Origin: Xestospongia bergquistia
Taxonomy: Eukaryota > Porifera > Demospongiae > Haplosclerida > Petrosiidae
Direction of reading: 5' to 3'
DNA: 64,000 nt
Assembly (NCBI GenBank): GCA_963965975.1
Contig: OZ014419.1
Span: 868,001-932,000, forward strand
Made by a program: the position numbers and the translations under genes. The notes beneath the pieces are model-generated. The model worked only from the letters and a program-made list of their open reading frames with translations. It did not search any database and was not told the DNA's origin. This document shows, piece by piece, positions 1-59,851 of the stretch (position 1 is the stretch's first letter; each line of letters begins with the position of its first letter).

Positions 1-1048
1 AATGGCATCTCTCCTTCAACTTGATTTAGCAAGACAGAGTCTTAGTCAATGTGGAGACATCTCTAGTGACTGTACTATGACAAGTAATACAACAGAATTA
101 AAGGCTATACTTCAAGATATTGTTTGGTTTATGAATTATTCAAGTCTACAGTTAAACACACTTACAAAGACTATTAAAGGACATGGTATACAAATTAATA
201 GTTTAAATGAAACAGTTAATAGTTTGAAGAACTCTCTGTGGAAATGTTGGCGTCCAAAATCTTGTCTTGATATTAAAACAGCTTGGCCTGATAGTACCTC
301 TGGTATTTACAGCATTTATGACGAGAGTAATAATGGGTCTTCTCATAATGTCTATTGTCATATGGAGGAGTTGTGTAGTTCTGAAGGAGGATGGACAAGA
401 ATAGCTTACCTCAATATGTCTGACTCTACAGAGAATTGTCCTCCAGGGTTTAAACTGTACCAGCCAGGAGGTGTTAGAGCTTGTGGAAGACAAAATTCAA
501 GCAGTGGGAGTTGTCAGTCAGTTAAGTTTCTTTCTTATAGTATCAGTTACTCTCAGATGTGTGGTAGGGTAGTGGGGTATCAGTATGGATCACCTGATGC
601 AATTCATAGTTCTAGCAATCGTGGAACAGGACATGATGATATCAACAGGTATTATGTTGATGGGGTCAGTCTCACACATGGCTTTCCTCGTCAACATATC
701 TGGACATTTATGGCTGGAAATTCTGAAAAAACAAATTCACATTACGATTGTCCATGTACTAACGGTAGTACACAAACTGTCCTGTCTTTTATTGGAATTG
801 ATTACTTCTGTGAATCTGGTAATCCAGATACTTATTGGCAAGGTAAACTCTATTCTGCTGATCCTCTCTGGGATAAGAAGGGATGCTCAACAATTGAACA
901 ATCATGTTGTCAAGTCACTGGTCTCCCATGGTTCCACAAGACCATTCAGTCTCCTACTACAGACTATATTGAGTTGAGAGTTTGTGGAGATGAAGGCACA
1001 GACAATGAGGATGTCCCTGTTAATTACTATGAAATATACATTAAATGA
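1..1048 (+). CDS. Fibrinogen-like secreted Cys-rich protein, copy A (5' end outside window)
   Basis: The reading frame is open from the left edge, so the first ATG at position 2 is internal. The visible 348 residues match the full-length copy at 5381-6607 almost throughout. There is a helical stalk rich in N-glycosylation sites. A fibrinogen-type start follows (SCLDIK, SGIY, VYCHMEELC, GGWTRIAYL), and then a Cys-rich domain containing VRACGR, CGRVVGYQY, DGVSLTHG and a final YYEIYIK. The stop is TGA at 1046-1048, and an AATAAA-type signal lies near 1090. No intron is visible. Family knowledge suggests an extracellular lectin-like or recognition protein, but only the N-terminal subdomain resembles fibrinogen; the ligand is unknown. 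Confidence 0.75.
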   Translation, partial: MASLLQLDLARQSLSQCGDISSDCTMTSNTTELKAILQDIVWFMNYSSLQLNTLTKTIKGHGIQINSLNETVNSLKNSLWKCWRPKSCLDIKTAWPDSTSGIYSIYDESNNGSSHNVYCHMEELCSSEGGWTRIAYLNMSDSTENCPPGFKLYQPGGVRACGRQNSSSGSCQSVKFLSYSISYSQMCGRVVGYQYGSPDAIHSSSNRGTGHDDINRYYVDGVSLTHGFPRQHIWTFMAGNSEKTNSHYDCPCTNGSTQTVLSFIGIDYFCESGNPDTYWQGKLYSADPLWDKKGCSTIEQSCCQVTGLPWFHKTIQSPTTDYIELRVCGDEGTDNEDVPVNYYEIYIK

Positions 1049-2889: not shown

Positions 2890-3205
2890 TCATTTACATT
2901 GTATTATTGTTTATATAGCCTCAGTCCTCATACTTTGACATATTACATTGTATATTGTATTATTGTTTATATAGCCTCAGTTCTCATACTTTGACACATT
3001 ACATTGTATATTGTATTATTGTTTATATAGCCTCAGTCCTCATACTTTGACACATTACATTGTATATTGTATTATTGTTTATATAGCCTCAGTTCTCATA
3101 CTTTGACACATTACATTGTATATTGTATTATTGTTTATATAGCCTCAGTTCTCATACTTTGTCACATTACATTGTATATTGTATTATTGTTTATATAGCC
3201 TCAGT
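2890..3205. repeat. 56 bp tandem repeat carrying a 3' splice site (6 acceptor copies)
   Basis: Six acceptor-like stretches (tgtttatatagcctcag) occur at a regular 56 bp spacing, with TAG-CCTCAG near 2916, 2972, 3028, 3084, 3140 and 3196. Only the last runs into coding sequence (PQSSESEG). Each unit therefore contains a copy of the real intron end and the first bases of the exon. The homologous array in copy B has 15. Confidence 0.9.
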
Positions 3206-3546
3206 CTTCAGAATCTGAAGGTAAGATACGTAGTTCAAGACATAGTAAACGAAAACATGATGATCGTGAGAATGAAAGTCCACAACCAAAAAAAACCAAA
3301 GTGAGATTAACTAGATAGCTAGTTAATAAACTATTTTAATGACTGATCATTCCCATACAGGGCTACTCCTTTGAGAGTGAAGGAGAAATCCAGGATGACT
3401 AACTCAATTACATATAATTAATTGACTGTTCTCTCTTATTGCATAATTTCTATTACTTTTTTCATGAGCTTCCAAATACCAAATCTTTTCATCATAAATC
3501 ACTACTCATACAATATTGTATAATACAATGTTTAGTAGATAGATTA

Positions 3547-3895
3547 TTAATGAGAATGATCTGGAACACGTTTCCTGATAGGAGAGAGAGAGAGAGAGAG
3601 GTGACAAAACTATGAATGTTTAACTTACCTAGGAGCAGCTTTAATAATATTATCAACTCTCAATATCATTTCTGCAGCTTCTGATGCTGACAAAAGGACT
3701 TGACGTTTCACAAGATACGACTCTACAATACCGAGTATATTCATTTCTCCTACTGTCCCCCTTGCCATGTCTAAGAGAGAAATAACAAGACAGCCAGACA
3801 TGATACTAACCTTACCTAGACCCATATTACTTTTGCCTTCATCATGAAGAGCTTTCAATTGTGAAATAAGTTCAGAACTATCATAGCCAGCATTA
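3547..3895 (-). pseudogene. CCT2: CCT2 3' end, truncated duplicate (unit A)
   Basis: This is a nearly identical copy of the last three CCT2 exons at 9511-9875. The 28 bp terminal exon is at 3547-3574 (RKRVPDHSH and stop). The exon encoding [38 protein letters not shown] starts at about 3628, and part of the preceding exon ends at 3895. There homology stops abruptly inside the exon at CAG and continues into fibrinogen-like sequence. No upstream CCT2 exons are present, so this is a gene-end fragment left by the segmental duplication. The intact gene is 5.7 kb away. Confidence 0.9.
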
Positions 3896-4157
3896 TCAGT
3901 CTTTTATTGGTAATGATTACTTCTGTGAATCTGGTAATCCAAATACTTATTGGCATGTTATACTGCTGATCCTCTCTGGGAAAAGAAGGGATGTTCAAGA
4001 ATTGAACAATCATGTTGTCAAGTCACTGTTCTCCCATGGTTCTACAAGATCCTTCAGTCTCCTACTACTGACTATATTGAGTTGAGAGTGTGTGGAGATG
4101 AAGGCACAAGCAATAAGGATGTTCCTGTCAATTACTATGAGATTTATGTGAAATAAA
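3896..4157 (+). pseudogene. Relic: 3' end of a fibrinogen-like gene
   Basis: The sequence matches the last ~90 codons of the fibrinogen-like genes ([17 protein letters not shown], then after a small deletion and frame change ADPLWEKKGCSRIEQSCCQV and NYYEIYVK with TAA at 4154-4156). The 3' flank differs from that of copies A and B and the ending resembles the minus-strand copies (YEIYVK), so it derives from a third family member. It begins at the duplication junction. Confidence 0.8.
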
Positions 4158-5296
4158 ATGTCATTATGACTGTGATTGAAATAATTAGTGACTACTTCAT
4201 GTTATTATATTGTGTCTTTTAAAATCTAAAAATAATGTGATTTGTTTTATTTGCTACAAATTTAGCAATTTAAAACTACTAATTTCTAATACATTTTTTA
4301 TTACCAAACTAATTGCTTTACTTAGACTAAATAACCTCATATCTGCTACTTAAAAAATAGATTTTTAATCCAAGCCTCCATTTTCTTGAAGTAGTGATAA
4401 ATATACATAACCTTTTGACTCATATCTATTGCTGTTCTATTAACAATTATCTAAGTTCACTGAATTATCAATGTTATCATTCAGTATTTATCAGATAGAA
4501 ACTTAAGAAGCTAATATTTAGTTTCTTCTCTCATTGCATTATGTTAAATAATCATAGTAACATTTTATGACTGACTATATTTTTGTTAAGTATCTTTAGC
4601 TGAAATGTTTTCAATTGGTTGTCTTAGCTGTTGTTTGTTACTGGATGTCCCTCATTATCTCTCTATTCTGATCTAATACAAGTTAACATCAGTATGCAAC
4701 TACTGATGTTATAGATTATGAAACAAAACATAATGACATAAACAGTGCATATGTTGATGGTATCAGTCTCACACGTGGCTCTCCTCATCAACATATCTGG
4801 ACATTTATAGGAGCTTGTGGATGTAACTATTAGAAGGCAACTTTTAAAATTTGTATAGTCTATGTTACAATCTAAGCCTAAATGTATGTCACACTTCTCT
4901 GAGCTTAATATAAGAAATTTTCTTAAAATGTGTTTTCTGAATTTATTGACCTATGTAACCTCATTGTATACTTATAACCTATTACTGAGGTTATCTATGG
5001 TTGAATGGGAGGATGTAATAACCTTATATTTACTATCATTGTATAGTCAGACCATTTGTAAACTAGCTACTAGATAACAGATGATTTAATTTCCTTATAA
5101 GGGTAGACACGTTACCTTATTATAAGGTCATATGTATAGTACAAAACAGCTGAGCTAAAATAACAGCTATTTTATATATACACTTGACTAGTAAGCATGT
5201 ACAAGCCTGTATAGCACTTGTCATACCACACCAACATTGACCCCAATATTGGTCAGACCATAACCTGACTTGCCTGACCACTTGCTCTGGCTCTGT
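4158..5296. other. Intergenic, with an internal fragment of a fibrinogen-like gene at about 4690-4815
   Basis: This stretch is AT-rich with no supported gene. At about 4690-4815 a decayed piece corresponds to 6145-6270 of the intact gene (QYATTDAID through HYVDGVSLTHGSPRQHIWTF), with substitutions and small losses. The rest shows no recognisable feature. Confidence 0.6.
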
Positions 5297-5305
5297 TATA
5301 TAAAG
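5297..5305 (+). promoter_or_regulatory. TATA box of the fibrinogen-like gene (copy B)
   Basis: TATATAAAG lies 76 bp upstream of the chosen ATG at 5381, a normal spacing for a core promoter with a short 5' UTR. The minus-strand family member at 61187-62392 has a similar TATATAAA about 85 bp upstream of its ATG. Confidence 0.6.
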
Positions 5306-5380
5306 GGTGACATTTGTATTTAGACAATCATCTAACAAAACATTAGAGGATATTAGTGAGATACTAAATCTTTGAACAAC

Positions 5381-6607
5381 ATGGTGTTAAAAATACATAC
5401 AATATTGCTTTATCTTTTACTGATCTGGACTGTTGATGGATTTCAATACCAGTGTTCTTCCTCAAACTCATCTCTATCTCCATGGAGTACACTAGCTGAC
5501 TATATGACAAAGATGAATGAGCTGACACGTGGGTTTACCTCTCTCTCTCACTCACTCTCATCAATGGCATCTCTCCTTCAACTTGATTTAGCAAGACAGA
5601 GTCTTAGTCAATGTGGAGACACCTCTAGTGACTGTACTATGACAAGTAATACAACAGAATTAAAGGCTATACTTCAAGATATTGTTTGGTTTATGAATTA
5701 TTCAAGTCTACAGTTAAACACACTTACAAAGACTATTAAAGGACATGGTATACAAATTAATAGTTTAAATAAAACAGTTAATAGTTTGAAGAACTCTCTG
5801 TGGAAATGTTGGCGTCCAAAATCTTGTCTTGATATTAAAAAAACTTGGCCTCGTAGTACCTCTGGTATTTACAACATTTATGATGAGAGTGATAATGGGT
5901 CTTCTCATAATGTGTATTGTCATATGGAGGAATTATGTAATTCTGAAGGAGGATGGACAAGAATAGCTTACCTCAATATGTCTGACTCTACAGAAAAATG
6001 TCCTCCTGGGTTTAGACAGCACCAGTCAGACGGTGTTAGAGCTTGTGGAAGACAAAATTCAAGCAGTGGGAGTTGTCAGTCAGTTAAATTCCCTTCTTAT
6101 GGCATCAGTTACTCTCAAGTATGTGGTAGAATAGTGGGATATCAATATGCAACTACTGATGCTATAGATACAGTTTATGGAACAGGACATAATGATATCA
6201 ATAGTCATTATGTTGATGGTGTCAGTCTCACACATGGTTCTCCTCGTCAACATATCTGGACATTTATGGCTGGACTTTTTGAAAACGTCTCAAACCCAAT
6301 TGTTAATTGTCCCTGTGCTACTGGTACCACACAAACTGTCCAGTCTTTTATTGGTAATGACTACTTCTGTGAATCTGGTTGCCCATATACTATAGTATAT
6401 CCTAAACTCTATACTGCTGATCCTCTCTGGGACAAGAAGGGATGCTCAACAATTGAACAATCATGTTGTCAAGTCACTGGTCTCCCATGGTTTCACAAGA
6501 CCATTCAATGTCCTACTTCTGACTACATTGAAATGAGAGTTTGTGCAGATGAAGGCACAGACAATGAGGATGTCCCTGTTAATTACTATGAAATATACAT
6601 TAAATGA
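5381..6607 (+). CDS. Fibrinogen-like secreted Cys-rich protein, full length (copy B)
   Basis: A single-exon gene of 408 residues. ATG 5381 is chosen because it opens a clear signal peptide (MVLKIHTILLYLLLIWTVDG); the frame extends only to a TTG upstream. Residues 30-140 form a helical stalk with repeated Leu and N-x-S/T sites, suggesting multimerisation. From residue ~148, SCLDIK, SGIY, VYCHMEELC and GGWTRIAYL resemble the N-terminal subdomain of fibrinogen C-terminal domains and intelectins. The rest has about 16 Cys and strongly conserved blocks (CPPGF, VRACGR, CGRIVGYQY, HYVDGVSLTHGSPRQHIWTF, CPC, DYFCESG, ADPLWDKKGC, YIEMRVC) and does not match the usual fibrinogen end. It is likely secreted and may act in recognition or adhesion. 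Function is inferred. Confidence 0.85.
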   Translation: MVLKIHTILLYLLLIWTVDGFQYQCSSSNSSLSPWSTLADYMTKMNELTRGFTSLSHSLSSMASLLQLDLARQSLSQCGDTSSDCTMTSNTTELKAILQDIVWFMNYSSLQLNTLTKTIKGHGIQINSLNKTVNSLKNSLWKCWRPKSCLDIKKTWPRSTSGIYNIYDESDNGSSHNVYCHMEELCNSEGGWTRIAYLNMSDSTEKCPPGFRQHQSDGVRACGRQNSSSGSCQSVKFPSYGISYSQVCGRIVGYQYATTDAIDTVYGTGHNDINSHYVDGVSLTHGSPRQHIWTFMAGLFENVSNPIVNCPCATGTTQTVQSFIGNDYFCESGCPYTIVYPKLYTADPLWDKKGCSTIEQSCCQVTGLPWFHKTIQCPTSDYIEMRVCADEGTDNEDVPVNYYEIYIK

Positions 6608-6737
6608 ACAGACCATGTATTATTATTACTGTTTATTACTTGTTCTGTTAATAAAAGTTGAATTAAAGCTAATATGAATATAATCTGATCACAAGATACT
6701 AATATATATGTGAGATATATACTATATCTATATCTGA

Positions 6738-9366
<2,629 letters not shown>

Positions 9367-9510
9367 CTCAATTACATACAATTAATTGACTGTTCTCTCT
9401 TATTGCATAATTTCTGTTACTTTTTTCATGAGCTTCCAAATACTAAATCTTTTCATCATAAATCACTACTCATACAATATTGTATAATACAATGTTTAGT
9501 AGATAGATTA

Positions 9511-12500
9511 TTAATGAGAATGATCTGGAACACGTTTCCTGATAGGAGAGGGAGAGGGAGAGAGAGAGAGAGAGGTGACAAAGCTGTGAATATTTAACTT
9601 ACCTAGGAGCAGCTTTAATAATATCATCAACTCTCAATATCATTTCTGCAGCTTCTGATGCTGACAAAAGGACTTGACGTTTCACAAGATACGACTCTAC
9701 AATACCGAGTATATTCATTTCTCCTACTGTCCCCCTTGCCATGTCTAAGAGAGAAATAACAAGACAGCCAGACATGATACTAACCTTACCTAGACCCATA
9801 TTACTTTTGCCTTCAGCATGAAGAGCTTTCAATTGTGAAATAAGTTCAGAACTATCATAGCCAGCATTATCAGCAATAATAGTAGGTAACTAATAAGATA
9901 TAATAATACATACTGCAATCAATTATATAGTCTCCATCCCCTCTCACTTGTCTCAATGCTTTAGCAAAGCTTTCCATTGCCATGGACTCTTTACCAGGAG
10001 TAGTAGCTGCCAGTTTTTGTACAGCATCAGCCATCAACAACTCTGAACAACCTGTAATAATTAATACTATATTCTGATCTATTATAGTCAGATTACTTCA
10101 CCTCCACCATAAACTATTTTAGTCTCCTTAACAGTACGAGAGAGTACACAGAGAGCATCATGCAATGAACGTTCTGCTTCATCTAAGATCTGTTGAGTAG
10201 CACCTCGGACAACAATAGTACAAGCTGCTCCAAGAGCCACACCTGAGAATCTAATCAGCTAAAGAGAAATAAATGATTTTGAACAACAAGAGTACTATCT
10301 GTATTACCTTGTCTTCTCCGATCATAACTTCTTCAATAAGTTTACATTCACCTAATTTTACTTTCTCAGGATTACCAAATGTAGAGACTATCTCACCACC
10401 TTTAGATGACATTATAGTAACTATAATACGCTATTAGTAGTAGCATTACCTAGTACTAATGCTAGTCTCTCTATCCCTTCAAAGTCAGCATGTTCAATAG
10501 CCATTACTCCAGCATCAGCAAATAATTGTTCAGGATAGTTATAAATTAATTGTCTATTATTATTATGTTAATAAACAAGACATGTATTACATGTAACTGG
10601 TTATTTCTACCTGTTAATAAAGACATTGATTTGATGTTTCAAGATCATGTTAACTTTGTCTTTCATCTTTTCCTAAAAAATGTTTGATATTCATAATGAT
10701 CTACATACCAACCAGCTGGACTATATACACGTGTGGGGTGTGTGCATAGTAACATTTGAATATATATCCCCACTATCAGAACATAGTAATATTAGCATAT
10801 GTGCCATTAACAGAATTATAGTAATATTAGCATACATTCCATTACCAGAACATAGTAATACTAGGATATACCCCCATTATCAGAACATAGTAATACTACC
10901 ATATACCCCCATTATCAGAATATAGTAATACTACCATATACCCCCATTATCAGAATATAGTAATACTACTATATACCCCCATTAAAAGAACATAGTAATA
11001 TTAGCATATGTGCCATTAACAGAATTATAGTAATATTAGCATACATTCCATTATCAGAACATAATAATACTACCATATATCCCCATTATCAGAATATAGT
11101 AATACTACCATATATCCCCATTATCAGAATATAGTAATACTACCATATACCGCCATTATCAGAATATAGTAATACTACCATATACCCCCATTATCAGAAT
11201 ATAGTAATACTACTATATACCCCCATTAAAAGAACATAGTAATATTACCATATACCCCATTATCAGAATATAGTAATACTACCATATACCCCTATTACCA
11301 GAATATAGTAATACTACCATATACCCCTATTACCAGAATATAGTAATACTACCATATACCCCCATTATCAGAATATAGTAATACTAGCATATACCCCCAT
11401 TATCAGAATATAGTAATACTAGCATATACCCCCATTATCAGAATATAGTAATACTAGCATATACCCCCATTATCAGAATATAGTAATACTAGCATATACC
11501 CCCATTATCAGAACATAGTAATACTACCATATACCCCCATTATCAGAATATAGTAATACTAGCATATACCCCCATTATCAGAATATAGTAATACTAGCAT
11601 ATACCCCCATTATCAGAATATAGTAATACTAGCATATACCCCCATTATCAGAATATAGTAATACTACCATATACCCCTATTATCAGAACATAGTAATATT
11701 AGGATATACCTCATTGGCAAAAGTGTACATTATTGATGGAGTGGTTATTTATATAAAGATAAGAAAATACTAACTTCAAATTATTATTACCTTCTCAGCT
11801 ATTTCTAGTTCAGCTATCTTCTGAGTTGAATCAACTCTCACTTTAGATCCAAACACCTGATAGAAAAACAAGTATATCCAATCTATCCATCCATTTATCC
11901 AATCTATCCATCCATTTATCCAATCTATCCATCCATCATCTAATCTGTCCATCCATTCATCTAATCTATCTATCCATTTATCCAATCTATCCATCCATCA
12001 TCCAATCTATCCATCCATTTATCCAATCTATCTATCCATTTATCCAATCTATCCATCCATCCATTCATCCAATCTAACCTTTATCTTATCAGTATCCATT
12101 GCAGTGTTAGCAATAAGAATACGAGCATTCTCAATTTTCTTTGGTTGATTGACTCCAATTTTCTTTTCCAAAAGAAAACCTACAAAGAAAGGATACAGTA
12201 ACTTTCCCCAAAAACACAGCCACAACATGTACTATGTACCAAACCAACTAACTCTCAACATCCCTTTCAAGTAAATTCCCTAATTATTACTACAGGTACC
12301 TATTACTACAAAGCTATTATTACTACAACTAATTTTCCAAGAAGAGTACATGCCAACATTAACAAAAAATTAACAAATATTTTACAAATGAACCCATTAG
12401 ACAAATATGTCAACTTTTTACTACATTATATAACAATGTTGTTATTGAACCTTCTTCTAGATAAGAGTCAGCTAATCGACCACCTAGTTTCTTGATTACT

Positions 12501-13625: not shown

Positions 13626-13728
13626 TTCGGTTTACTCCACGTGGTTAACTTAGGAAACGTCTGTACATTTTTGTAATTTCACTTTAAAGGCGTGGCTCAT
13701 TTGGGAGGATGCTTTTGCAACAAGGAAG

Positions 13729-15846
13729 ATGTCTTATCGTGTTAAAGAAGTAAGCAGTGAGGTTCCGCTTGTTTCCAAACCCTTTCTTGCTGAAACTTAT
13801 CCTCAGGAGCGCCATGATGAGCCTATCATCAATAGTTCGCTACTTATCCTCCAGGATCTAGATAATGACACGTTCTGGAATCGTATTAAATCAAAATTTG
13901 GCTATAATCCTCCTGAATATAACATAGTGGTGTACCAAGATATAAGTGTGGAAGAACGTGCTGGGTTTGTTCTTTATGAAGGAAGTGATCTTGCTAGTAC
14001 CAAAGAAGCATTCCTTAAGTTACAGAGTACTCTCACACCTTTGTTACGTGAAGGGACAGTAATACTGACAGAAGACCTGCTTAAGGAGGTCATACTACCC
14101 AAACCACTTGACGAGAAATCCATGATCATACATTTAGTTAATTACATTGAGGCTCATCCTGATGCTCACCCAGAATGGTACACAATTATTAATTTATTAG
14201 AACCAGAACCAGAGGAAGATACTGGGAAACCAAGTGATCATTCCTCCTCTCCTGAGACTGTCACTCCTCCTCCAAAGGCTGCAAAGATGTCAGAATCACC
14301 TGAGATAATTGAAGATATTGTGTCATTTTTTAGTAGTATTATTGACCAAATTGTAGACATTTTTAGTTTCAGTAGTGACAATGATGCCTCTTGTGACAAG
14401 AAAATTAGTCAGAAAATATGGGAAGCATTTCAAGCACAATTTAAATCGAAGTCTTCTGCTGCTTCTTCTGTGTTTCGTGAAAAAATATTGTCACTATTTC
14501 ATGCCTTTAGTTCCAGTGAGAATATTAATAAAAGGCCACTAATGACTGCTGTTGAGAAGAATTTTATTGAGTGTGCCATAAGCCTTCTTCTAGCTGGTAG
14601 CAATCCTAATTTACAGCAAGAGAAGACACTTCTTACTCCACTGCATGTTGCTGTTGCAAATGACAAGCAAGTTATGGTCAAGTTATTGCTTGCCTTTAAT
14701 GCTGATCCTACTATTCTAAATGCTGATGGCAAAACTCCACTAGATTTAGCTGTTGAGTCGAAAGAAAAAAATGCTCGTAGCATTTTCACTTTTTTAGATG
14801 TAGCAAAAACGCATCAAGCAAAAACAAGAGATTATTTTGCTTCACATTCTACTCCACCTACTCCAAAGAACAGTTCTGATACTTTTCTTATTAGTTTAGA
14901 TGGTGGTGGAATTCGGGCCTTTAATATCTGCCAAGCATTAATTGCCATACAAGATAGAATGGAACAGTTGAATGCTAACTGTAATCAACTAATGTCTTAT
15001 TTTGATTACATTTCTGGCACTAGTTCTGGAGGGATTGCTGGGTTGGTTTTATCATATACAAATCATGATGTTTACACTGGCCGATATCTTGTTTATAAAA
15101 TCATAGCTGATGTCTTTGATAAAGACAAATCAAAACGAGGAAAGCTAATGGATAGCTATCTTCAAAGTCTTTTTGGAGAAGAGAAAGTCATGGCTGACCT
15201 TGATCCCTCTCAGCGAATGATAGTTACTGGTACTTTAGCTAATGCTGATCCTAACAGGCTCCATCTCATGACAAGCTATGGTGAGTCCAGAGATGGAGAA
15301 TTAGGTCCAAATGAGCGAAAAGTTTGGGAAGCTGGTCGTATCACATCAGCAGCTCCTTATTACTTTCCATGTTTTCAGGATAAGTTCTTAGATGGTGGTC
15401 TTATGGCAAACAATCCTACATTAGATGCGATGACAGAAATTATTGAACAGAGTAAGACTTCGGTTAAATTTGGTTGTGTTCTCTCCTTGGGAACTGGTTA
15501 CATGTATCCACCACAACATGTCAAACATGTTGACACATTTGTTCCCTTATTTTCGTTCAATGCCCTCACAAGGATCCCTAATGCATTCAAAGGTCTCATT
15601 AGCCTTTTTGACCACTTTATAGCTCAAGTCACACAGTCTGATGGTCAAGAAGTCCAGAGAGCAAAGGCTTGGTGTAATAACAGTGGGTGGCCATATTTTC
15701 GTCTCTCTCCACCCCTATTTGAAGGTATCGATCCTACATCTGCAGACAGAGAAGCTGTTATTGACATGCTTTACAACACCCAGATGCATCTCCTGTATAT
15801 TCCTGATCAAATTGATAATATTGCTAAAGCTATATTATCAAAATAA
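13729..15846 (+). CDS. Ankyrin-repeat patatin-like phospholipase (iPLA2/PLA2G6-like), first of a tandem pair
   Basis: 705 residues in one exon. The C-terminal half is a patatin lipase domain close to calcium-independent phospholipase A2: oxyanion motif DGGGIRAF (residues 391-398), nucleophile GTSSG with Ser432, and the catalytic DGG at Asp555 in FLDGGLMANNPTLDAM. Both dyad residues are present, so hydrolysis of phospholipid acyl chains is expected. Residues ~265-375 hold two or three ankyrin repeats (LTPLHVAVAND, GKTPLDLAVE). Residues ~40-170 form a domain shared with the next gene (FWNRIKSKFG, GFVLYEG, EDLLKEVILPKPLD, HPEWYTII) that I do not recognise. A low-complexity linker separates them. 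The ATG follows the CCT2 start by about 100 bp, so the two are transcribed divergently. No signal peptide is seen. Confidence 0.85.
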   Translation: MSYRVKEVSSEVPLVSKPFLAETYPQERHDEPIINSSLLILQDLDNDTFWNRIKSKFGYNPPEYNIVVYQDISVEERAGFVLYEGSDLASTKEAFLKLQSTLTPLLREGTVILTEDLLKEVILPKPLDEKSMIIHLVNYIEAHPDAHPEWYTIINLLEPEPEEDTGKPSDHSSSPETVTPPPKAAKMSESPEIIEDIVSFFSSIIDQIVDIFSFSSDNDASCDKKISQKIWEAFQAQFKSKSSAASSVFREKILSLFHAFSSSENINKRPLMTAVEKNFIECAISLLLAGSNPNLQQEKTLLTPLHVAVANDKQVMVKLLLAFNADPTILNADGKTPLDLAVESKEKNARSIFTFLDVAKTHQAKTRDYFASHSTPPTPKNSSDTFLISLDGGGIRAFNICQALIAIQDRMEQLNANCNQLMSYFDYISGTSSGGIAGLVLSYTNHDVYTGRYLVYKIIADVFDKDKSKRGKLMDSYLQSLFGEEKVMADLDPSQRMIVTGTLANADPNRLHLMTSYGESRDGELGPNERKVWEAGRITSAAPYYFPCFQDKFLDGGLMANNPTLDAMTEIIEQSKTSVKFGCVLSLGTGYMYPPQHVKHVDTFVPLFSFNALTRIPNAFKGLISLFDHFIAQVTQSDGQEVQRAKAWCNNSGWPYFRLSPPLFEGIDPTSADREAVIDMLYNTQMHLLYIPDQIDNIAKAILSK

Positions 15847-16045
15847 ATGGTTTAGACCAATACGGAAAGTTGTACTAATTCACTAGACTATAATGTGTGC
15901 ATTCCTTTAATTTCTTTATTACATTTTTATGGTTTTAACGTTTATATAAGTCGGTTGTAGCTAACGTTTAGTTAGAACAATTATTGTTAGCATTTAGCAT
16001 TATTATTATTGTTAGCAGAAAAGGTGGAGAGAGAACTGGTTTTCC

Positions 16046-18510
16046 ATGGCATGTACAGCAAGCAAGACAGATACTTTAAAGGTAAGCTATTTACCAATAC
16101 TATAAAATTGCCTAGAGCTATACTGTGATAGACGCTAAAATTACTACGTTGTTATTCTATTATGATAATTTCGTCATGGTTGTTGTCAAAGTGGTTTATA
16201 ACAAATGTTTATAAGTTTAAAAATTTCTTTTTATTTCATTCATAGGCTGGGATAAAGAAAGTTTTAAGCAATGAAGGTGAAAAATTGTCACATTTTGTAG
16301 TTAGGACAATAGAGTCTGGTGTCCAACTTTGTGATACGTCTAAGGCCATTGAAACAAAAGTCTACCCTTTGAAAGGTTTCCAAGGACCTATCAGTAGCTT
16401 TGTTATTATTCTCCAAGGTCAAGATAATGGAAATTTCTGGAATCATATCCGATCAAAGTTTGGCCATAATCCTCCAGAATTCCAGATAGTCGTGTACCAG
16501 GATGACATAGTTAAGGGACGCGTTGGGTTTGTTCTTTATGAAGGAGATGATCTGACTAAGACTAAAGAGGCATTCATTGAACTGGAATCTTCTCTCATGC
16601 CTCTTCTTGGTGAAGGGACAGTAACATTAACGGAAGACCTACTCAAAGAAGTGATACTTCCCAAACCTCTTGACAAAAAATGTATGATAATGCATTTAGT
16701 TGATGTCATAGAATCTAATCCTGATGCTCATCCAGAATGGTACACAATCATCCAGTTGCTGCAAAAAAAGGAACCAGTGTCTCCATCTACAGAAAAATCT
16801 GGTGCCAAGGGCTTTTTCTCGACATTAAAATTTAAGTCTAAGAAAGCCGAATCAGCTGCTGTTTTAAAGCAAAAGAAGTCAGGAGGGTCATTGGAAACTA
16901 ATTGTGATGAACATGATGGTGGTGATATAAATGTCGGTACATCTGTCACCCCAAAGCTTGAGGATTTCAATTATGCTAAGAGAAAAAGGAAGAGTGCTGT
17001 AGAAGACTTTGCTTCTCTTTTGGTTCCAGTTGGAGCTGTCCCAGAAGGTCTCAAAGAGAATGATGATGATGATGTCAGTGAGAAGGTTTGGCTCAAATAC
17101 AGAAGACGAACTCGTCTTGTCAAAAAAGAACGTCTGTCAGTAGAAATTCGTGAGAGCAAAGGAGAAATCTTTGATTCTTGTGATCAAGAAGGAAAGACAC
17201 CATTAATGACAGCAATAGAGAAAGGTTATATCAAAAGTGCTTTCAATTTTTTACTGGCAGGAAACAATCCAAACTATCAAGACAACCACTCAGGCAATAC
17301 AGCTCTTCATATTGCTGTCCAAATTCAAAATCTTGTGCTAGTTAAAATGCTACTTGCTTTCAATGCTGAACCAACCATCATTAACAAGGAAGGAGAAACA
17401 CCATTAGATCTTGCTCGCTCAAATGAGGCATGTGAAATTGTTGAAGTCCTAGAAAAGTGTGCAAAGCTTCAAGCAAAGACAAGGGATTATTTTGCCACTC
17501 ATTCTAGTCTTCCCAGACGTGGGAAATCACGCAATAGTCAGTTCTTACTTAGTTTGGATGGAGGTGGTATCCGGGCCTTCAATACAACTCAAGCCATCAT
17601 TTGCATTGAAGATCGACTTAAGCAATTGGATCCTAAACAGAGACCATTTATGTCACATTTTGATTATGTTGCTGGTACTAGTGCTGGATCTATTGCAGGA
17701 TCTGTATTGATGTACACAGATGTTGATACTCGTGCTGGCCGATATCTGATCTATAAAATCATAACTGATGTCTTTGATAAAAAGATAACACAACGTGGAG
17801 AACGAATAGATCAGTACCTTAAAGACGTGTTAGGAGAAGAAACAACAATGGCTGATCTCAAGGGTCCCCAACGGATGATAATAACTGCAACTTTAGCCGA
17901 TCGCAATCCAAATAAACTTCATCTCATGACTAGCTATGGTGAATCAAGAGATGGACAATTGGGTCCAAGGCATCGTAAAGTTTGGGAAGCATGTCGCATC
18001 AGTTCTACAGCTCCCATCTTCTTCCCAGCATTGGACGACAAGTTCTTAGATGGTGGTCTCATGGCAAACAACCCTACTCTAGATGCAATGGTGGAGATTA
18101 TGGATCAAAACAAGAAGGATGGAAAACCATGTAAAATTAGCTGTATTGTTTCTTTGGGAAACGGCATTCCCAAAGTGAAGTCTGTGGATAATATTGAAGT
18201 GTTCCTTCCAGGGTTTTCTATGAAAGCTATAACAAGTATTCCTAGTTCTCTAAAAGGTCTAGGAAGTTTATTTTCACACTTAGTGACTCAAGTCACACAG
18301 TCAGATGGACAAGAGGTGTATCGTGCTAGGATACTTTGCGACAGTCTTGGTTCCTCTTATTTTCGTGTGTCTCCACCACTTTCTGAGAATATCGATCCTC
18401 TTAGTACTGACAGAGAAGCTATTGTTAACATGATCTATAACACTCAAATGTATCTTTTAGATATACCAGATCAAATAGATGCCATTGCTAAATGTTTACT
18501 GTCCAAATAA
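16046..18510 (+). CDS. Ankyrin-repeat patatin-like phospholipase (iPLA2/PLA2G6-like), second of a tandem pair
   Basis: Two exons, 16046-16081 and 16246-18510, give 766 residues. ATG 16046 is preferred because its 12 codons end at a GTAAGC donor and join in frame to the TTCATAG acceptor; without it the long frame has no ATG near its start. Motifs are DGGGIRAF (Asp450), GTSAG (Ser491) and DGG (Asp614), so the catalytic dyad is intact. Ankyrin repeats are at ~330-420 (GKTPLMTAIEKG, GNTALHIAVQ, GETPLDLAR). The N-terminal domain matches the first gene, while the linker between it and the ankyrins is longer and rich in Lys/Asp. The pair arose by tandem duplication; the genes are 199 bp apart on the same strand. 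Confidence 0.85.
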
Positions 18511-25443: not shown

Positions 25444-28356
25444 TTATTTATTTTTTTTCCTTTTAGATTGGGGTAAATCTTCTTGATTTCGATCATTATC
25501 TCCCTTCACTGGCTTTCCTCCTCCACCTATTTCCATATTTGGAATTAAAGGACTAATTAAATAAAGTTTCAGTTTTGATTGTTGAAGGTCCTTCTTCTCA
25601 ACCGCAATTTTCACAACTATTTTGTCAAGCAGACAAAAACGAACACCTTCCACAGTTAATGAAGGGGTTACCTCGTCATACATCAATGTAAGTTCTTTCC
25701 CATCTGTTCCTTGATCAAAGAAAAGACTGCTTTCAATGCCATATGTTGGAACCAAAACTTGTAGAGCATTACGACGTACAAATAAAACAAACCCATCAAC
25801 AATAGTTCCTTTATCTTTGAAGTATAACTGTGTGTGGAGAGCAACAGAGGAACGTTGTGCATATTGTGCCATTTTGTGACGATGATTGAGATGATTAGTT
25901 AGTTGCTGAGTACGATGTTTATCCAACAGAGCTGGATAAGTGACGTCAGCATTGATGGATACAGCTAATAAACGGTGTACTATAATATCAGAGTATCGTC
26001 GAATTGGTGAGGTAAAGTGAGTGTAAATGGGAGAGGCTAAACCGTAATGAGCAAACTCCTCATATGGTAATGTACCTGAACAAAAATACAGTGCCTGCAT
26101 CATACATCGTGTTGCAAGAATACGCAACATTGTATTGAAGTAGCTCTCCTCAGGAAGGTGAGCTATGTCCAGGGAGTCTGCTAAAGCCTTGGCTGTATCT
26201 ACTGCTAAAATTACTCCTTTTCCACTGGCAGCTTTGAGAAGGGTATCATAATTAGAGAGGGGTGGAGAAGGGTGTCGACGCAAGAGTGAACAATGAGGGA
26301 ATGTTTCATAGATTTGACGAGCTACTGATATATTGGCCAGCAACATAAATTCTTCAACTAAAGAGTTGGTGTCTTTCAGTTCTTTAGCTTGAAGATCTAT
26401 TGGGTCGTGTGTCTCACTATCAATTTCAAATCTAATCTCAGGTGATGCTAATGTCAATGCTCCAGCATCACGTCTTCTTTGTTTTAAGATTTTTGCTAGT
26501 AAGTTCAGTCCTCGGAGACCCAAAGTGACATCATCATTCTGATTAGGATCATCAATTCTCATTTGTGCTTCAGCATATGTGAAAGCTTCTCGGGAACGGA
26601 TAACACTTTTAGTGAACTTTGTAGAGACAATGTCAGCCTCAGGAGTCATTTCCCATAGACAAGAGAATGCCAATCTATCTTTGCCACATTGTAAAGAACA
26701 CAAATTAGAGCTCAAAAGTTCAGGAACCATGTCAATTCTCTTGTCTGCTAAATAGACTGTGGTGCCACGATTAGCTGCTTCTTCATCAAGAGCAGTTCCG
26801 GGTCGAATAAAATATGAGACATCAGCTATATGAACACCAACTTCACAGTTTCCATTGTCCAATTCTCGGAAGTGAAGAGCATCATCAATATCAGTACAAC
26901 CAGGTGGATCAACACTGCATATTGGCAGATTACGAAGATCCTTTCGTTTAGTCAACTCATCATCTGCTATCGACCATGGCATCTGAGGCAAGTCTTTCAA
27001 AACAGCAGGAGTAAATGGAAGATGAGGAACATCATGTTCAAGAAGGAGGACTTCATTCTCAGTCTCTTTATCTCCAATAGTGCCCAATTCCTTGACAAAG
27101 TGACCACGAGGAAAACGAGATGATCGTGGCCATGCATCAATACTGACTACAATTCTTTTTTCAAGTAAAGCTACTCCTTGTCTGGTTTCCAATCGAATTC
27201 GAGGTATGCGCTTGTCAGCTGGGATAAATGTATGTTTAAATCCTTTCATGCTATAAAGAGGAAGAATAGTACCACAATATGGCCGCCAATTTCGCTTTAT
27301 AACACCAACTACTTTTCCAGTAGGTTGGACTAGTGATTTATCAACAATGATCTTTGCTACAGTATCAATTGGTGTGGTATCCATGTGTTCTTCTTCATTT
27401 TCTTCTTCATCATTTACAGGACTTTCTTTGGTCACTATATCCAGTGGATGAGACCATTTTGACTCAGGAAAAAGTTCAATAGCTACTACATCTTCATGTA
27501 CAGCTCTATTCATATTTTCTAAACTTTGAACTAGTACCCATCTGTCCAAAGAATGTACACTTACAAACCCTTCCTGATAATTTTCTCGAGAGCCTTGAAA
27601 TACACCCTGGAGATATTTACCACTTTTCAATCCACTTTGAATAACTGAGAGGGGCAGATGTTCGGGAAAGTAGATTTTCTTATGGGCAGAATCTGTTGAC
27701 TCCTGTTCTTCAGACTGAGCTAGACGATCAAGTAGGTGTGGCACTGATGTGAGGGATTGTACATATTCCAATACAGTATATGCTTCAATGCCAGCTGCCA
27801 TTGATTTCTGCTTATTCTGACGATCATTAGTTAAAAGAACTACTCTAGTTGGTTCAGATGAGTTTGTTATTGTCTTAAGATGTTCATTGTACCATTGAAC
27901 ACATACTCTAATAGCTCGGTCATTACGATCATTAGTGCTCTCTCCTTCTCTTCGTTCTACATACGTGTCTTTATGATGCTCATTTGAAAATACAAAAAAT
28001 CTTCGTGTTTTATTAGCAATAATGTCTCGAAGTCTTTTATAAGTGCCAGGATTTTGATGTTTAACTTCTTGTAAGACAATTTGAGTTAGAATAACGTTAC
28101 TGATAGCTGGGTCTTCGAGAATATCGACTTGATGAAGACAGACGTTCGTGTCGGGTAAGATATAGTGTGGGAACAAACACTTGGTTGATTGTGAGTGTGG
28201 TGTTGCCTCTAATATATACAGATCATATGAAGAGGAGTGACATATTGAACAAGTAGTTACACCACAATGGACGTCATCTCGGAGATAGTGCTCTCGAACA
28301 ACTTTGAGCACATTGCCTTTCTTAGTTTTCTTGACAAATGTTTTTGACGTCAACAT
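25444..28356 (-). CDS. DIS3: DIS3/RRP44, catalytic subunit of the RNA exosome
   Basis: 970 residues in one exon, starting MLTSKTFVKKT as in human DIS3 and ending with a Lys-rich tail (SKRKKNK). The CR3 motif cysteines are Cys31, Cys36 and Cys39. The PIN endonuclease domain starts at YILPDTNVCLHQVD (Asp69) and includes DRNDRAIRV and TNDRQNK. Cold-shock domains follow, with GVIKRNWRPYCG and PADKRIPRIRLETRQ. The RNB 3'-5' exonuclease domain has the catalytic SVDPPGCTDIDDALHF (DIDD at 489-492) and HFTSPIRRYSDIIVHRLLA. A C-terminal S1 domain completes it. All acidic catalytic residues I can check are present. It should degrade or process RNA in the nucleus and cytoplasm. The human gene is intron-rich, so the intronless state is notable. 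No poly-A tract or other retrocopy mark is seen. Confidence 0.97.
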   Translation of the reverse strand: MLTSKTFVKKTKKGNVLKVVREHYLRDDVHCGVTTCSICHSSSYDLYILEATPHSQSTKCLFPHYILPDTNVCLHQVDILEDPAISNVILTQIVLQEVKHQNPGTYKRLRDIIANKTRRFFVFSNEHHKDTYVERREGESTNDRNDRAIRVCVQWYNEHLKTITNSSEPTRVVLLTNDRQNKQKSMAAGIEAYTVLEYVQSLTSVPHLLDRLAQSEEQESTDSAHKKIYFPEHLPLSVIQSGLKSGKYLQGVFQGSRENYQEGFVSVHSLDRWVLVQSLENMNRAVHEDVVAIELFPESKWSHPLDIVTKESPVNDEEENEEEHMDTTPIDTVAKIIVDKSLVQPTGKVVGVIKRNWRPYCGTILPLYSMKGFKHTFIPADKRIPRIRLETRQGVALLEKRIVVSIDAWPRSSRFPRGHFVKELGTIGDKETENEVLLLEHDVPHLPFTPAVLKDLPQMPWSIADDELTKRKDLRNLPICSVDPPGCTDIDDALHFRELDNGNCEVGVHIADVSYFIRPGTALDEEAANRGTTVYLADKRIDMVPELLSSNLCSLQCGKDRLAFSCLWEMTPEADIVSTKFTKSVIRSREAFTYAEAQMRIDDPNQNDDVTLGLRGLNLLAKILKQRRRDAGALTLASPEIRFEIDSETHDPIDLQAKELKDTNSLVEEFMLLANISVARQIYETFPHCSLLRRHPSPPLSNYDTLLKAASGKGVILAVDTAKALADSLDIAHLPEESYFNTMLRILATRCMMQALYFCSGTLPYEEFAHYGLASPIYTHFTSPIRRYSDIIVHRLLAVSINADVTYPALLDKHRTQQLTNHLNHRHKMAQYAQRSSVALHTQLYFKDKGTIVDGFVLFVRRNALQVLVPTYGIESSLFFDQGTDGKELTLMYDEVTPSLTVEGVRFCLLDKIVVKIAVEKKDLQQSKLKLYLISPLIPNMEIGGGGKPVKGDNDRNQEDLPQSKRKKNK

Positions 28357-28753
28357 TGAGCAACACGTTGTTTGTAATGAATATTCATTTATGATTATTA
28401 TAATTAAATAATAATTATTAATAATAATAATAATATTTTAAATCATGTTTTTTTAGTTTTATGATTTTATGAGGATTGGAGAGTATCATTATTGTAATGA
28501 ACGTTGCTTTAGTTGATCATTTTAGTTGGCTATTTTATATCAGACTTATTAGATATTTTCCTTCTTTATGTGACTATACTGCCACTGTGGTAAGTGTGGT
28601 TACGAGTGCTGGTCCACACATGCGCAAACTATATATGTGTATCCGTGGAATAAAATTATAGCCATGCTGTTTTACATAATATTACAGCCTCCTTGTATCA
28701 CCAACACAGCTAGCAATTGCTATGTTAGTGGTGTCCTCCAATGTCTGATGAAC
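28357..28753. other. Intergenic upstream of DIS3
   Basis: AT-rich, with no gene recognised and no clear promoter motif. Confidence 0.4.
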
Positions 28754-52703: not shown

Positions 52704-55700
52704 ATTAATGAGGTATGTGATAAAAATACTTTGGCCAAATGACTGTAAACCACTACATTTGCTAGTGTTTATTCAATATGTCATCATTTAATGCTGTTAC
52801 AAAATTATAGAACACAAAAACAAGACATAAATATTTTAATATTTAATCCAAAATTTTCCATTCCATAATTTCCAATATGAAAAAAGCTCCTCTTCTTCAT
52901 TGTCATCAGATTCATCACTATCATCTCTTATTATTGATGGCTCTTTTTCTTTAAACTTCTCTTTTCGAACCCAACCTGGAATATTAATCTTGGGGTTGTC
53001 TGAGGTAGCATCAGACAGCCATAGTGTCAACACTATGTAACCTGCTATACAAATTAATATTGCATAAAATATTTCCAGGATAAAATAGCCGGCATGATCT
53101 ACCAGTGCTCCAGTTACAATTGTCAGGATTGAAAAGACTAGGTTATAATTGCTTCTAAAAATTCCATATGCAGTAGCGATGTGGTCTTCTTCAACTAATA
53201 GTGCAGGGAGAGGAGAAAATGCTGGTCCTGCAAGAGTGTAAGATATCGAGTAAATGACTCCAACTAGAAATGGTATATAAATTTCATTAAGACTGACAAT
53301 TAAAATGAGATGAGTGGCCAGTGCTGTAAGAATCCCTCCCATAAGCCACAACAGGTTGAATCCAATTTTGTCTATGAGAATACCTACTAGTGGTGTTAGT
53401 ATAATAGTAGCTCCAAATATTAAAGAGTTGGCAATATTAGCAATGTCAATATCCAGTCCATACTTTTGAACATAGAACACTTCACCTATACTTACAAAAG
53501 AGAAGACAGTTGGAAAATAAGTGATATTAACTGCTACAGCTAGCCAGTATGTAATAGAGAATTGTCTGATGTTTTTCAACTTTATAGTTTTAAAGCCTCT
53601 GTGTTTCTTTCGCTGTGATTTTTTCTCTCCTTTTTGATCCATTACGATTACAACAAAACTGAAAATCAATGCTCCTAACAGACCAATGGCTGCAGTTGAT
53701 AGTGTAATGCCTAGACGAAGCAGAGGATTTGGTATAAAATTCAATACATTATATATCAACTGAGGCAATATCAATGCCAAAGCTCCACCAAGTCGACTGA
53801 AAGCAGTATCAATAGACATAGCAAATGAGAGCTTGTCTTTAAACCAAAGTGCTTTAAATGCATGACTCACTATTACTGTGAGATCATTTCCAGCTCCTAT
53901 AAAGAACCGACCAACAAGCATGATATAGTAGTGATTAATAACAGCTCCAATAGCCCATATAACTTGTCCTAACAATGCAGTACTAACAACAATGATGAGA
54001 CCCAGTCTTAGACCCAGTAGTCTATCAATAATAATGCCACCAACTAGACATAAGACTATATTAGGCCAGGATGAGACAGAGAACAACAGGTCATACCATG
54101 TAGTATCAACATTCATCACTTTAATAATAGTATCTTCCAGTCCACTGGGCATTTCAACACAGAAGTTTGTGACATGACGAATAGAGCACAAAAACAGCAA
54201 AATAAAGTATCTGTAAGTCCAATGACTAGGATTACAGCAACATTTCCTCAACCAAGTAAAGAGAATAAGTTCACACATAGTTTTCTCTCTTCCCTAATTT
54301 GAAGCCAAACATGTGCAGACAGTTGGTAAATACTATAGCAACAGGAAATAACCAGCCCTTGCTAAATATATAATTTATTATGATAACTACAACAATTGCA
54401 ACCATACTTACTATCTTCCTTTATCAGTTAGACCAGTTCACAGTACAGAGTTATAAAAGCATTTGTAAATTAATTTTTGATTATCATCAAAATTTAATAT
54501 ATACCAACACATAATTAAATAATTCATTGCAGGTATGATGAACTAATTAAATAATTTTATTTTTGTTGTGACCTATTTTGTTGACAAAAGTCTTAGGAAG
54601 TGATTGTTTCACATCAACAATACCTTCTTTTTTTTGTTGTCTCCTACCTGATCCTGACATATTGATTTTCTTATTAGGACTTATCCAATCAATTAATGAT
54701 AATATCAATAGGATCATTATTGCCAAGTACAGGAGAAAAGTAAAGAAAAGCTCCAGTATCATATAGCCTACATTGTCAACTAAAACTCCAGTAGTAATAG
54801 TAAGAACTGAAAATACAAAATTATATGTACTCTTTAAGATGCCATATGCAGTACCAACTTGATTTTCTCTTACTAAAAGACCCGGCAGAGGTATTAAACT
54901 AGGTCCTATTAAAGTGTAAGAGATAGAGTACATTATTCCTGCAATAAAAGGGAACATTTTCTGTCCATAACTAACCATCAACATTAAGTGAGTACAAAGT
55001 GCAATAAGAAGACCTACTATTGCCCACACACTATTGAATCCAAGTCTGTCTACTAGAATACCTATAATAGGACTTACTAATACCACACTGCTGAAGACCA
55101 GAGCATTGGCAATACTAGCTGGAATTAGTCCCAGTTTGTACTTTTGTATGTAGAATCCTTGCCCAATGCTTGTGAATGAAAAGAGAGTTGCAAGATTAAG
55201 TGTTAGTACGACAACTATTAACCAAAATACAAGTGGAAAGGATTTGATGTCTCGGCAATTTATTGTCCTCTTGAATTTTCTATCTTGTTTAAAAAGTTTT
55301 TCTCCTTTAAAGTCCATGATTGCAATGATAAAGGTGGCAAATAGAGCTACGAGAAGACCTCCAGCTCCTACTAGGAATGTATAGACCAGACAATGACGAG
55401 AAGTTGTTGTGAATGTTGCAAACCATTTAAAGAGCAGTCCAGGTACCACTAACGCTAGTAGTCCACCCAGTCTACAAAAAGCCATATCAATGGATATAGC
55501 AAAAGACATGTGATTTCTGAACCATATAAATTTCATAGCATTACTAACTACAACAATTAGTTCATTACCAATACCCAGAAAGCAACGACCAAGTATCATG
55601 AGCCAAAAATAATCAAAGAATATTCCCAGTATCCATATTACCTGACCAAATAGAGCAATGCTTACAACCAGTATATATCCCAATCTAACACCTACTATCT

Positions 55701-58700: not shown

Positions 58701-59816
58701 TTAAGTGAACATTGTAATTTCATTGATATGTTCTCTGTTTAGTTGGAATACCATGAAAATTTGATTGATGGTTCTGGAATACTGGTAACATTTCCTGATG
58801 CTGAATGTCCAGTTGAGATTCCTGTAGCAAAGGTAATTTAATTGTCATATTAATTAATGTACTGACTTAACTGAGTAGGCTGTGGAAGTTGCTGTAAAAC
58901 TGTTAAAACCTCATACAACTGATGTGTTTTATCGACAACAAGCATGGTTACTAATACAAGTAAGTATTACAAGATGATACACGTTCTTTCTATATTATTG
59001 ATGTACATCTTTCTCTTCTCTCAGAGCTATCTTATAAGTTCCATTAATTTAACTGATGTGGATACTGATCTCTATCAACTCCTTCGTCAAATTCACTATC
59101 AACCTGTGGAATTCAATGCTAATAGACTCAAACACATTTCTTTGCCACAATGTACTAATAAAATAGCAAGAACAACATTTGAAACTGCTCTTAAAGGAGT
59201 CTTCAGTAAGTAACTCTACAACTATAATACTGTATACACTATGTCACTAAATATATTAGATAATTGTGCTATATTTTGTTTTAGTTCATTTAAATTATTG
59301 TATCATATAAAGATAAATGTGTTTTTTAGTTCAATTTTTTTGTTACTGTCTTCTTTTTTTAGTTGCTGCCTGTTTACGTGACTTAAGAAATGAAGCTGTT
59401 GTATTTTTGGCTGGTATTGTTAGACATATCACTTCAGTAGCTGTTGTCCAACAATCCTGTATGTCATATAAGTTATATATATATATATATCCTATGTAAC
59501 TAACACTGATTAATTCAGTATATATATATATATCCTATGTAACTAACACTGATTAATTCAGTATATATCCTATGTAACTAACACTGATTAATTCAGTATA
59601 TATATATATATCCTATGTAACTAACACTGATTAATTCAGTATATATCCTATGTAACTAACACTGATTAATTCAGTATATATATATATATCCTATGTAACT
59701 AACACTGATTAATTCAGTATATATCCTATGTAACTAACACTGATTAATTCAGTATATATATATATATCCTATGTAACTAACACTGATTAATTCAGTATAT
59801 ATCCTATGTAACTAAC

Positions 59817-59851
<35 letters not shown>

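Follow-up and report, generated by a model that had tools for sequence, protein, structure and literature searches.

The gene and its surroundings

The window analysed here is a stretch of 64,000 nucleotides (C9:868001-932000) from a sponge genome that was searched over 146 Mb in 21 contigs. On its forward strand, positions 5381-6607 hold an intact single-exon gene with an ATG at 5381 and a stop codon at 6605-6607, encoding 408 amino acids; the open-frame analysis needs no intron. A search of the window locates four genes and two relics of the same family, the number already given by a sequence-only reading of this DNA. The parts of the gene and its relatives are collected in Table 1.

Table 1. 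Parts of the 5381-6607 gene and related features in the window (window positions)
Feature	Position	Strand	Basis
Close paralogue, 3' part; start lies left of the window (whole gene C9:867819-869045)	1-1048	+	85% protein identity
Relic, C-terminal fragment	3885-4153	+	
Relic, core fragment	4687-4815	+	
Local duplicate of window positions -560 to 3899	4990-9873	+	DNA self-comparison
TATA box of the 5381-6607 gene	5297-5304	+	Sequence
Putative signal peptide	5381-5440	+	Hydrophobic N-terminus
Stalk, residues 26-145, heptad periodicity, coiled-coil-like	5456-5815	+	
First fibrinogen/intelectin-type subdomain, residues 146-205	5816-5995	+	NF040941 and intelectin-1 profile match
Head core, residues 206-295, history decoupled from stalk	5996-6265	+	Distance and divergence comparisons
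Variable loop with CPC and CESG, residues 296-345	6266-6415	+	
Conserved C-terminal block DPLWD ... YYEIYIK, residues 346-408	6416-6604	+	
Poly(A) signal AATAAA	6650-6655	+	Sequence
Paralogue with another stalk type, no CPC segment, four cysteines lost in all	61187-62392	-	
Paralogue cut by window end, stalk close to that of 61187-62392	62988-64000	-	

Other genes in the window include two tandem open frames (13654-18510, plus strand) with ankyrin repeats and a patatin-like phospholipase domain, 68-76% alike in the DNA that aligns, and a single open frame on the minus strand (25444-28437) that encodes a Dis3-type exoribonuclease, with domains of the PIN, cold-shock, RNB and S1 types. Three related transporter-like frames lie in a row at 52836-57453, two on the minus strand and one on the plus strand; two of the three were scanned and both match the major facilitator superfamily. 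Minisatellite-like arrays are found at 2891-3218, 8353-9177, 10745-11710 and 59484-59884, with periods of about 56, 70 and 78 bases as judged from the spacing of self-matches. The first two are copies, differing in length, of one array within the local duplication, and possible charged coding stretches rich in lysine and glutamate (1821-2336 and 7500-7990) are duplicated alongside the lectin-like genes.

Architecture of the family

The family was characterised from 58 distinct frames in the fetched loci, taken in order of similarity to the window gene, starting with the closest. A frame was kept if it was complete, reached 300 amino acids and had a hydrophobic start; this gave 39 members, with 19 frames dropped. 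Alignment A1 contains 38 of the 39, one being left out for an early stop. A TATA-like site within 160 nucleotides upstream occurs in 29 of the 39 members compared with 15% of random stretches, and poly(A) signals in 32 of the 39 compared with 30%.

A signal peptide predicted from the hydrophobic start would make this a protein of secreted type, in agreement with the sequence-only reading; because members were picked partly for a hydrophobic start, the signal-peptide evidence from the family is not independent. All 38 aligned members end with the last motif of the head, which leaves no part capable of anchoring after it. Residues 60-144 of the 5381-6607 gene show a 3.5-residue periodicity reached by 2 of 500 shuffles, and in 26 of 39 members no more than 25 of 500 shuffles reach the heptad periodicity of this region. 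This pattern is consistent with a stalk that would oligomerise as a coiled coil. A stalk shared by the whole family had been proposed, but stalks differ wholly between subfamilies.

The fixed blocks noted earlier for the head recur throughout the family when searched with relaxed regular expressions: [RV][AVG]CG[RKM] in 37 of the 38 aligned members, and [DE]G[IV]SLT, [DN]PLW[DN], E[MLI]R[VIA]C and the end motif [ED][IL][YF][VI][KR] in every one. From residue 146 onwards the protein has 14 cysteines, each kept in at least 37 of 39 members. The gene at 61190-62392 is short of four of them: its CPC segment is gone, and so are the cysteine of CESG and one of the CC pair. This joint loss suggests that the four would form two disulfides in the other members. 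The expression CP[CS] scores 38 of 38, yet the 61190 gene is without a real CPC.

Residues 296-345 around CPC form the most variable segment of the head and, as predicted, sit between invariant blocks. That the CPC stretch is the most variable of all holds at the level of segments but not in 16-residue windows, where residues 162-177 of the first subdomain are more divergent (0.40 compared with 0.35 around CPC).

Copies in the genome

A protein search of the genome gives at least 102 scored matches among 751 first-look candidates, the weakest with an E value of 4.9e-71, and 92 of the 102 have no internal stop. A DNA pattern for DPLWDG is found in 309 places in the 146 Mb and its reversed control in none, and a pattern for Y[FY]CE[ST]G with a few near variants in 352 places compared with 14 for its control; each such place need not be an intact gene. 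Chance likeness is excluded by the E values and by the 309 DPLWDG places against no reversed ones. The family is thus very large, with hundreds of motif-bearing loci, and among the matches listed there are clusters on contigs C9, C5, C2, C4, C1 and C11. The copy number, like the mosaicism of heads and stalks described below, is a larger feature than those noticed first and comes to light only when the search goes beyond the window.

The same genome has 151 counted matches to the ordinary fibrinogen domain PF00147, which is also expanded. Among the matches listed, most are on C8 and C15 and none falls inside the clusters of the lectin-like family with the CPC loop. Most of the listed matches on C8 and C15 hold an in-frame TAG, and many start near profile position 30. 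The TAG may be a 3' splice site, hence of an intron that is absent from the lectin-like family.

Sequence relationships of the head

The fibrinogen-type start that had been recognised in the head is borne out by profile searches. NCBIfam model NF040941 (GGGWT) scores 35.4 bits against the 5381-6607 gene, above its cut-off of 30, and matches the first subdomain in 38 of 38 members at E <= 0.1; the likeness covers that subdomain, but the model is only 46 residues long. NF040941 is intended for bacterial and archaeal annotation, and pattern-based searches of contigs from viruses and prokaryotes yielded no confirmed relative. When the A1 profile is compared with PDB, intelectin-1 is the best relative (E 3.5e-9 over about 85 residues), followed by other X-type lectins; matches to the fibrinogen beta and gamma chains are weaker and lie in part over the stalk. 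Vertebrate intelectins (X-type; PDB 4wmq, 6usc, 4wmo and 7e1e) resemble the family over the first 80 residues or so (hhalign E 8.5e-10) but nothing aligns past them, and hhalign gives no counterpart in intelectin-1 for the C-terminal part. Intelectins have the C-terminal motifs GGGY.P and EH.CIG. At the sequence level neither of these motifs from the glycan- and calcium-binding region is found in any of the 38 members.

The first subdomain is also of the same type as in canonical FReDs (PF00147; the heads of ficolin, tenascin and fibrinogen), from which the family differs further on. The usual fibrinogen end consists of a calcium-site pattern and a W-C-LNG pattern. Regular expressions find neither in the 38 members, as had been stated for the calcium site, and the letters LNG alone occur in two. 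PF00147 is absent at E <= 10 from the two window genes tested, which fall below the cut-off for a canonical FReD; it is matched by 13 of 38 members at E <= 0.1, with a best value of 0.0037. The genome's own PF00147 set is a separate one. At E <= 0.1 the 38 members together match 23 Pfam families, none of them an IgSF family.

The remainder of the head had been described as an unrecognised cysteine-rich C-terminal domain of about 230 residues. Such a domain exists and is unmatched by sequence in Pfam, NCBIfam and PDB, but it comprises about 190 residues when the fibrinogen-like subdomain is set aside. A profile built from it in 11 of the 38 members (A4) finds no relative in PDB, the best E value of 0.76 belonging to an unrelated enzyme; the best Pfam value for the whole 5381-6607 gene is 0.12. 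The C-terminal part shows no link by sequence to a known sugar-binding site. Structures predicted from just the four window sequences are of low confidence, with mean pLDDT values of 32.1 and 39.8, and give no clear structural match.

Mosaic structure of the genes

Segments of the gene were compared among 23 relatives, all of them from the C9 cluster or related to it and located on C2. Stalk distances between pairs of genes correlate at 0.95 with those in the first subdomain, at 0.48 with those in the C-terminal block and at 0.07 with those in the core. The correlation of the first subdomain with the core is 0.037 (0.111 at third positions alone), compared with a mean of 0.776 and a minimum of 0.569 in 500 random deals of the columns. 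In a PHI-like test of 22 genes with 140 informative sites, gene 61190 being left out, none of 1000 shuffles falls to the observed value. Linkage shifts near residues 186-218, 282-305 and 338-346, within or beside conserved blocks, but the positions of the junctions are rough because windows in these blocks vary little. The stalk and the first subdomain share one history and the core has another; the genes are mosaics.

When the segments are sorted into classes at fixed distance cut-offs, there is no association between stalk and core (an adjusted mutual information of 0.09, which 88 of 500 shuffles attain). The loop and C-terminal classes reach 0.23 and 0.31 with the stalk, values found in 0 of 500 shuffles, so the decoupling is incomplete. 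The 23 genes show 21 distinct combinations of modules, a figure that hangs on the clustering cut-offs, with the core alone split into 18 classes. In one of ten hand-picked pairs in which stalks and heads were compared (L024 and L029) the heads are 3-6% apart in nucleotides over codons 193-312 and the stalks 53-67%.

The reverse arrangement is seen in pairs with near-identical stalks (silent divergence under 0.12), which make up 57 of 741. Their mean silent divergence is 0.065 in the stalk, 0.049 in the first subdomain, 0.282 in the core and 0.424 in the loop, and 0.207 in the C-terminal block for 51 of the 57 pairs. The pairs were selected by low stalk divergence, for which the first subdomain, unused in the selection, serves as a control. 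Silent divergence exceeds that of the stalk in the core of 56 pairs and in the loop of 53, and in the core of all nine disjoint pairs.

The local duplication in the window serves as an internal control. Its copies differ mostly by 0-10% in bins of 100 bases. The three bins that cover 6601-6800 and 7401-7500 reach 11-13%, and repeats lie in the last of them; bins inside repeat arrays are averages of several alignments. A patch in the head at about 6001-6400 stands out with 15-22% at 6101-6400. Between the two duplicated genes dS rises from 0.033 over the signal and stalk to 0.157 in the first subdomain, reaches 0.356 in the core and 0.381 in the loop, and drops to 0.177 in the C-terminal block. 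Synonymous changes differ between the stalk and the core plus loop with a Fisher p of 1e-6. Among 12 hand-picked pairs examined for local jumps, those on C11 and at C9:6.40 Mb jump in the loop, and a second pair at C9:6.40 Mb jumps in the core and C-terminal block. There is no loop jump in L014 with L013, in the L047 pair or in the C9:6.62-Mb pair in L048. Because silent sites jump together with the protein, the patches are better explained by transfer from diverged paralogues than by accelerated change. The direction of conversion is best decided for the window duplicate only.

Selection on the loop

Across 133 pairs no segment has a dN/dS as high as 1, and the loop stands at 0.46. In close pairs, each segment being restricted to its own, the loop reaches 0.89 in nine disjoint pairs and 0.88 in all 19, compared with 0.29-0.41 (disjoint) and 0.32-0.53 (all close pairs) in the other segments. 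Loop and core differ with a Fisher p of 0.003 on raw counts, uncorrected for site numbers. One of forty 15-codon windows has a ratio of 1.10, and it lies in the signal peptide. The loop had been expected to evolve as a recognition surface, and its ratio is indeed raised but never above 1; this is relaxed or mixed selection, short of demonstrated positive selection.

Comparison with known systems

The closest described counterparts by layout are in Placozoa. Trichoplax sp. H2 has up to 31 genes called intelectin-like, a name assigned through PANTHER (Kamm et al. 2019; PMC6321704). According to the part of that report describing them, the proteins have about 250 amino acids, are encoded in genomic clusters and mostly carry a signal peptide. 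They have a short fibrinogen-type domain at the N-terminus only, ten shared cysteines, no coiled coils and a C-terminal part that is conserved among them and cannot be aligned with vertebrate intelectins (PMC6321704). Some have been placed in secretory epithelial and mucus cells (PMC11452194). The sponge family has the same layout by this description, with its signal peptide judged by hydrophobicity, an N-terminal FReD and a conserved C-terminus of its own. It differs in scale (309 motif places compared with up to 31 copies), in the long heptad-patterned stalk, in having 14 conserved cysteines rather than ten, and in its mosaicism, of which the placozoan description, in the part available, makes no mention. 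The sponge and placozoan genes, compared by description only, may belong to one family. The family had been called the best candidate for an undescribed system, which is too strong because the placozoan genes share the described layout (PMC6321704).

In another sponge, Dysidea avara, two tables list five and one fibrinogen-like genes that respond to microbial patterns (PMC6208332). These are annotated as PF00147 in the part of the source consulted and are therefore probably ordinary FReDs. No printed description of the sponge lectin-like family was found in the open-access library searched.

To our knowledge, snail FREPs are the nearest known fibrinogen-type proteins diversified by gene conversion. 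In Biomphalaria these secreted recognition proteins are described as owing their diversity to gene conversion and to point mutation (PMC12074976). Both groups are fibrinogen-type and of secreted type, and the gene conversion in FREPs has its parallel in the mosaicism of the sponge family, but FREPs carry IgSF together with fibrinogen domains, and the sponge family is without IgSF. One of them, FREP3, is reportedly diversified somatically, to judge from the title of PMC3313920, whereas the mosaicism of the sponge genes is seen in one assembled genome only.

Interpretation

The reading preferred here, with a probability of roughly 0.55, is that the family consists of hundreds of secreted, single-exon, lectin-like recognition proteins that are oligomeric and owe their diversity to ectopic gene conversion in the germline. 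The coiled-coil stalk would oligomerise and present disulfide-rich heads, each composed of an intelectin/fibrinogen-type first subdomain and a C-terminal domain that carries the variable loop. Such heads may bind microbial or other glycans and might agglutinate or opsonise their targets, in what would be a defence role. Conversion in the germline would move patches of core, loop and C-terminal block among paralogues, with junctions in or beside the conserved blocks, and such transfer would join promoter-plus-stalk modules to different heads.

Tandem arrays undergo conversion by default, so mosaicism alone is no proof of a recognition function. Promoter, stalk and first subdomain might simply have been homogenised within the arrays while the heads retained an older divergence, in which case the diversity would be unselected. 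Among same-stalk pairs mean silent divergence is indeed smallest in the first subdomain, and no segment has a dN/dS above 1, and this possibility keeps a minor share of the weight. It sits poorly with L024 and L029, whose near-identical heads are borne on unrelated stalks, with the window duplicate, where both flanks are close and the head patch is far, and with a loop whose ratio in close pairs is roughly two- to threefold the values in the other segments. Errors of assembly or of haplotype phasing could also produce mosaics, since the arrays are repetitive, but it is hardly credible that they account for those seen here: 92 of the 102 frames are intact, local jumps occur in clusters elsewhere too, and the silent divergence of 0.28-0.42 in the heads of same-stalk pairs exceeds that expected from errors between near-identical alleles.

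Other functions for such proteins are conceivable. The heads might be polymorphic ligands for adhesion or allorecognition, serving self/non-self or species recognition rather than the binding of microbes, a role that accords with the secreted, oligomer-like build and the high diversity no less well than defence does. It is unlikely, as the proteins end at the last motif of the head with nothing able to anchor them, and the intelectin-type first subdomain points to lectins. Components of extracellular matrix, mucus or a feeding glue, with no recognition role, would match the very high copy number, the secretion-type start and the cysteine-rich domain; such proteins need neither a variable loop between invariant blocks nor a lectin-type start, and the proposal is improbable. 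At the opposite extreme, promoter-plus-stalk modules and head cassettes might be recombined regularly, in the germline or even somatically, so that every individual would have a lectin repertoire of its own and an anticipatory recognition beyond the vertebrate and snail examples. This is a speculative idea and very probably wrong.

Under the preferred reading of germline-diversified recognition proteins, the family would be a variant of the recognition proteins diversified by gene conversion, with a C-terminal domain unrecognised in the searched libraries and a putative function. If such a repertoire is real, segment-wise diversification of secreted recognition proteins exists in a sponge. The scale of the family, with hundreds of loci and compact single-exon genes, makes it well suited to direct tests, and it offers a defined, conserved and presumably extracellular domain that sequence searches of Pfam, NCBIfam and PDB do not recognise.
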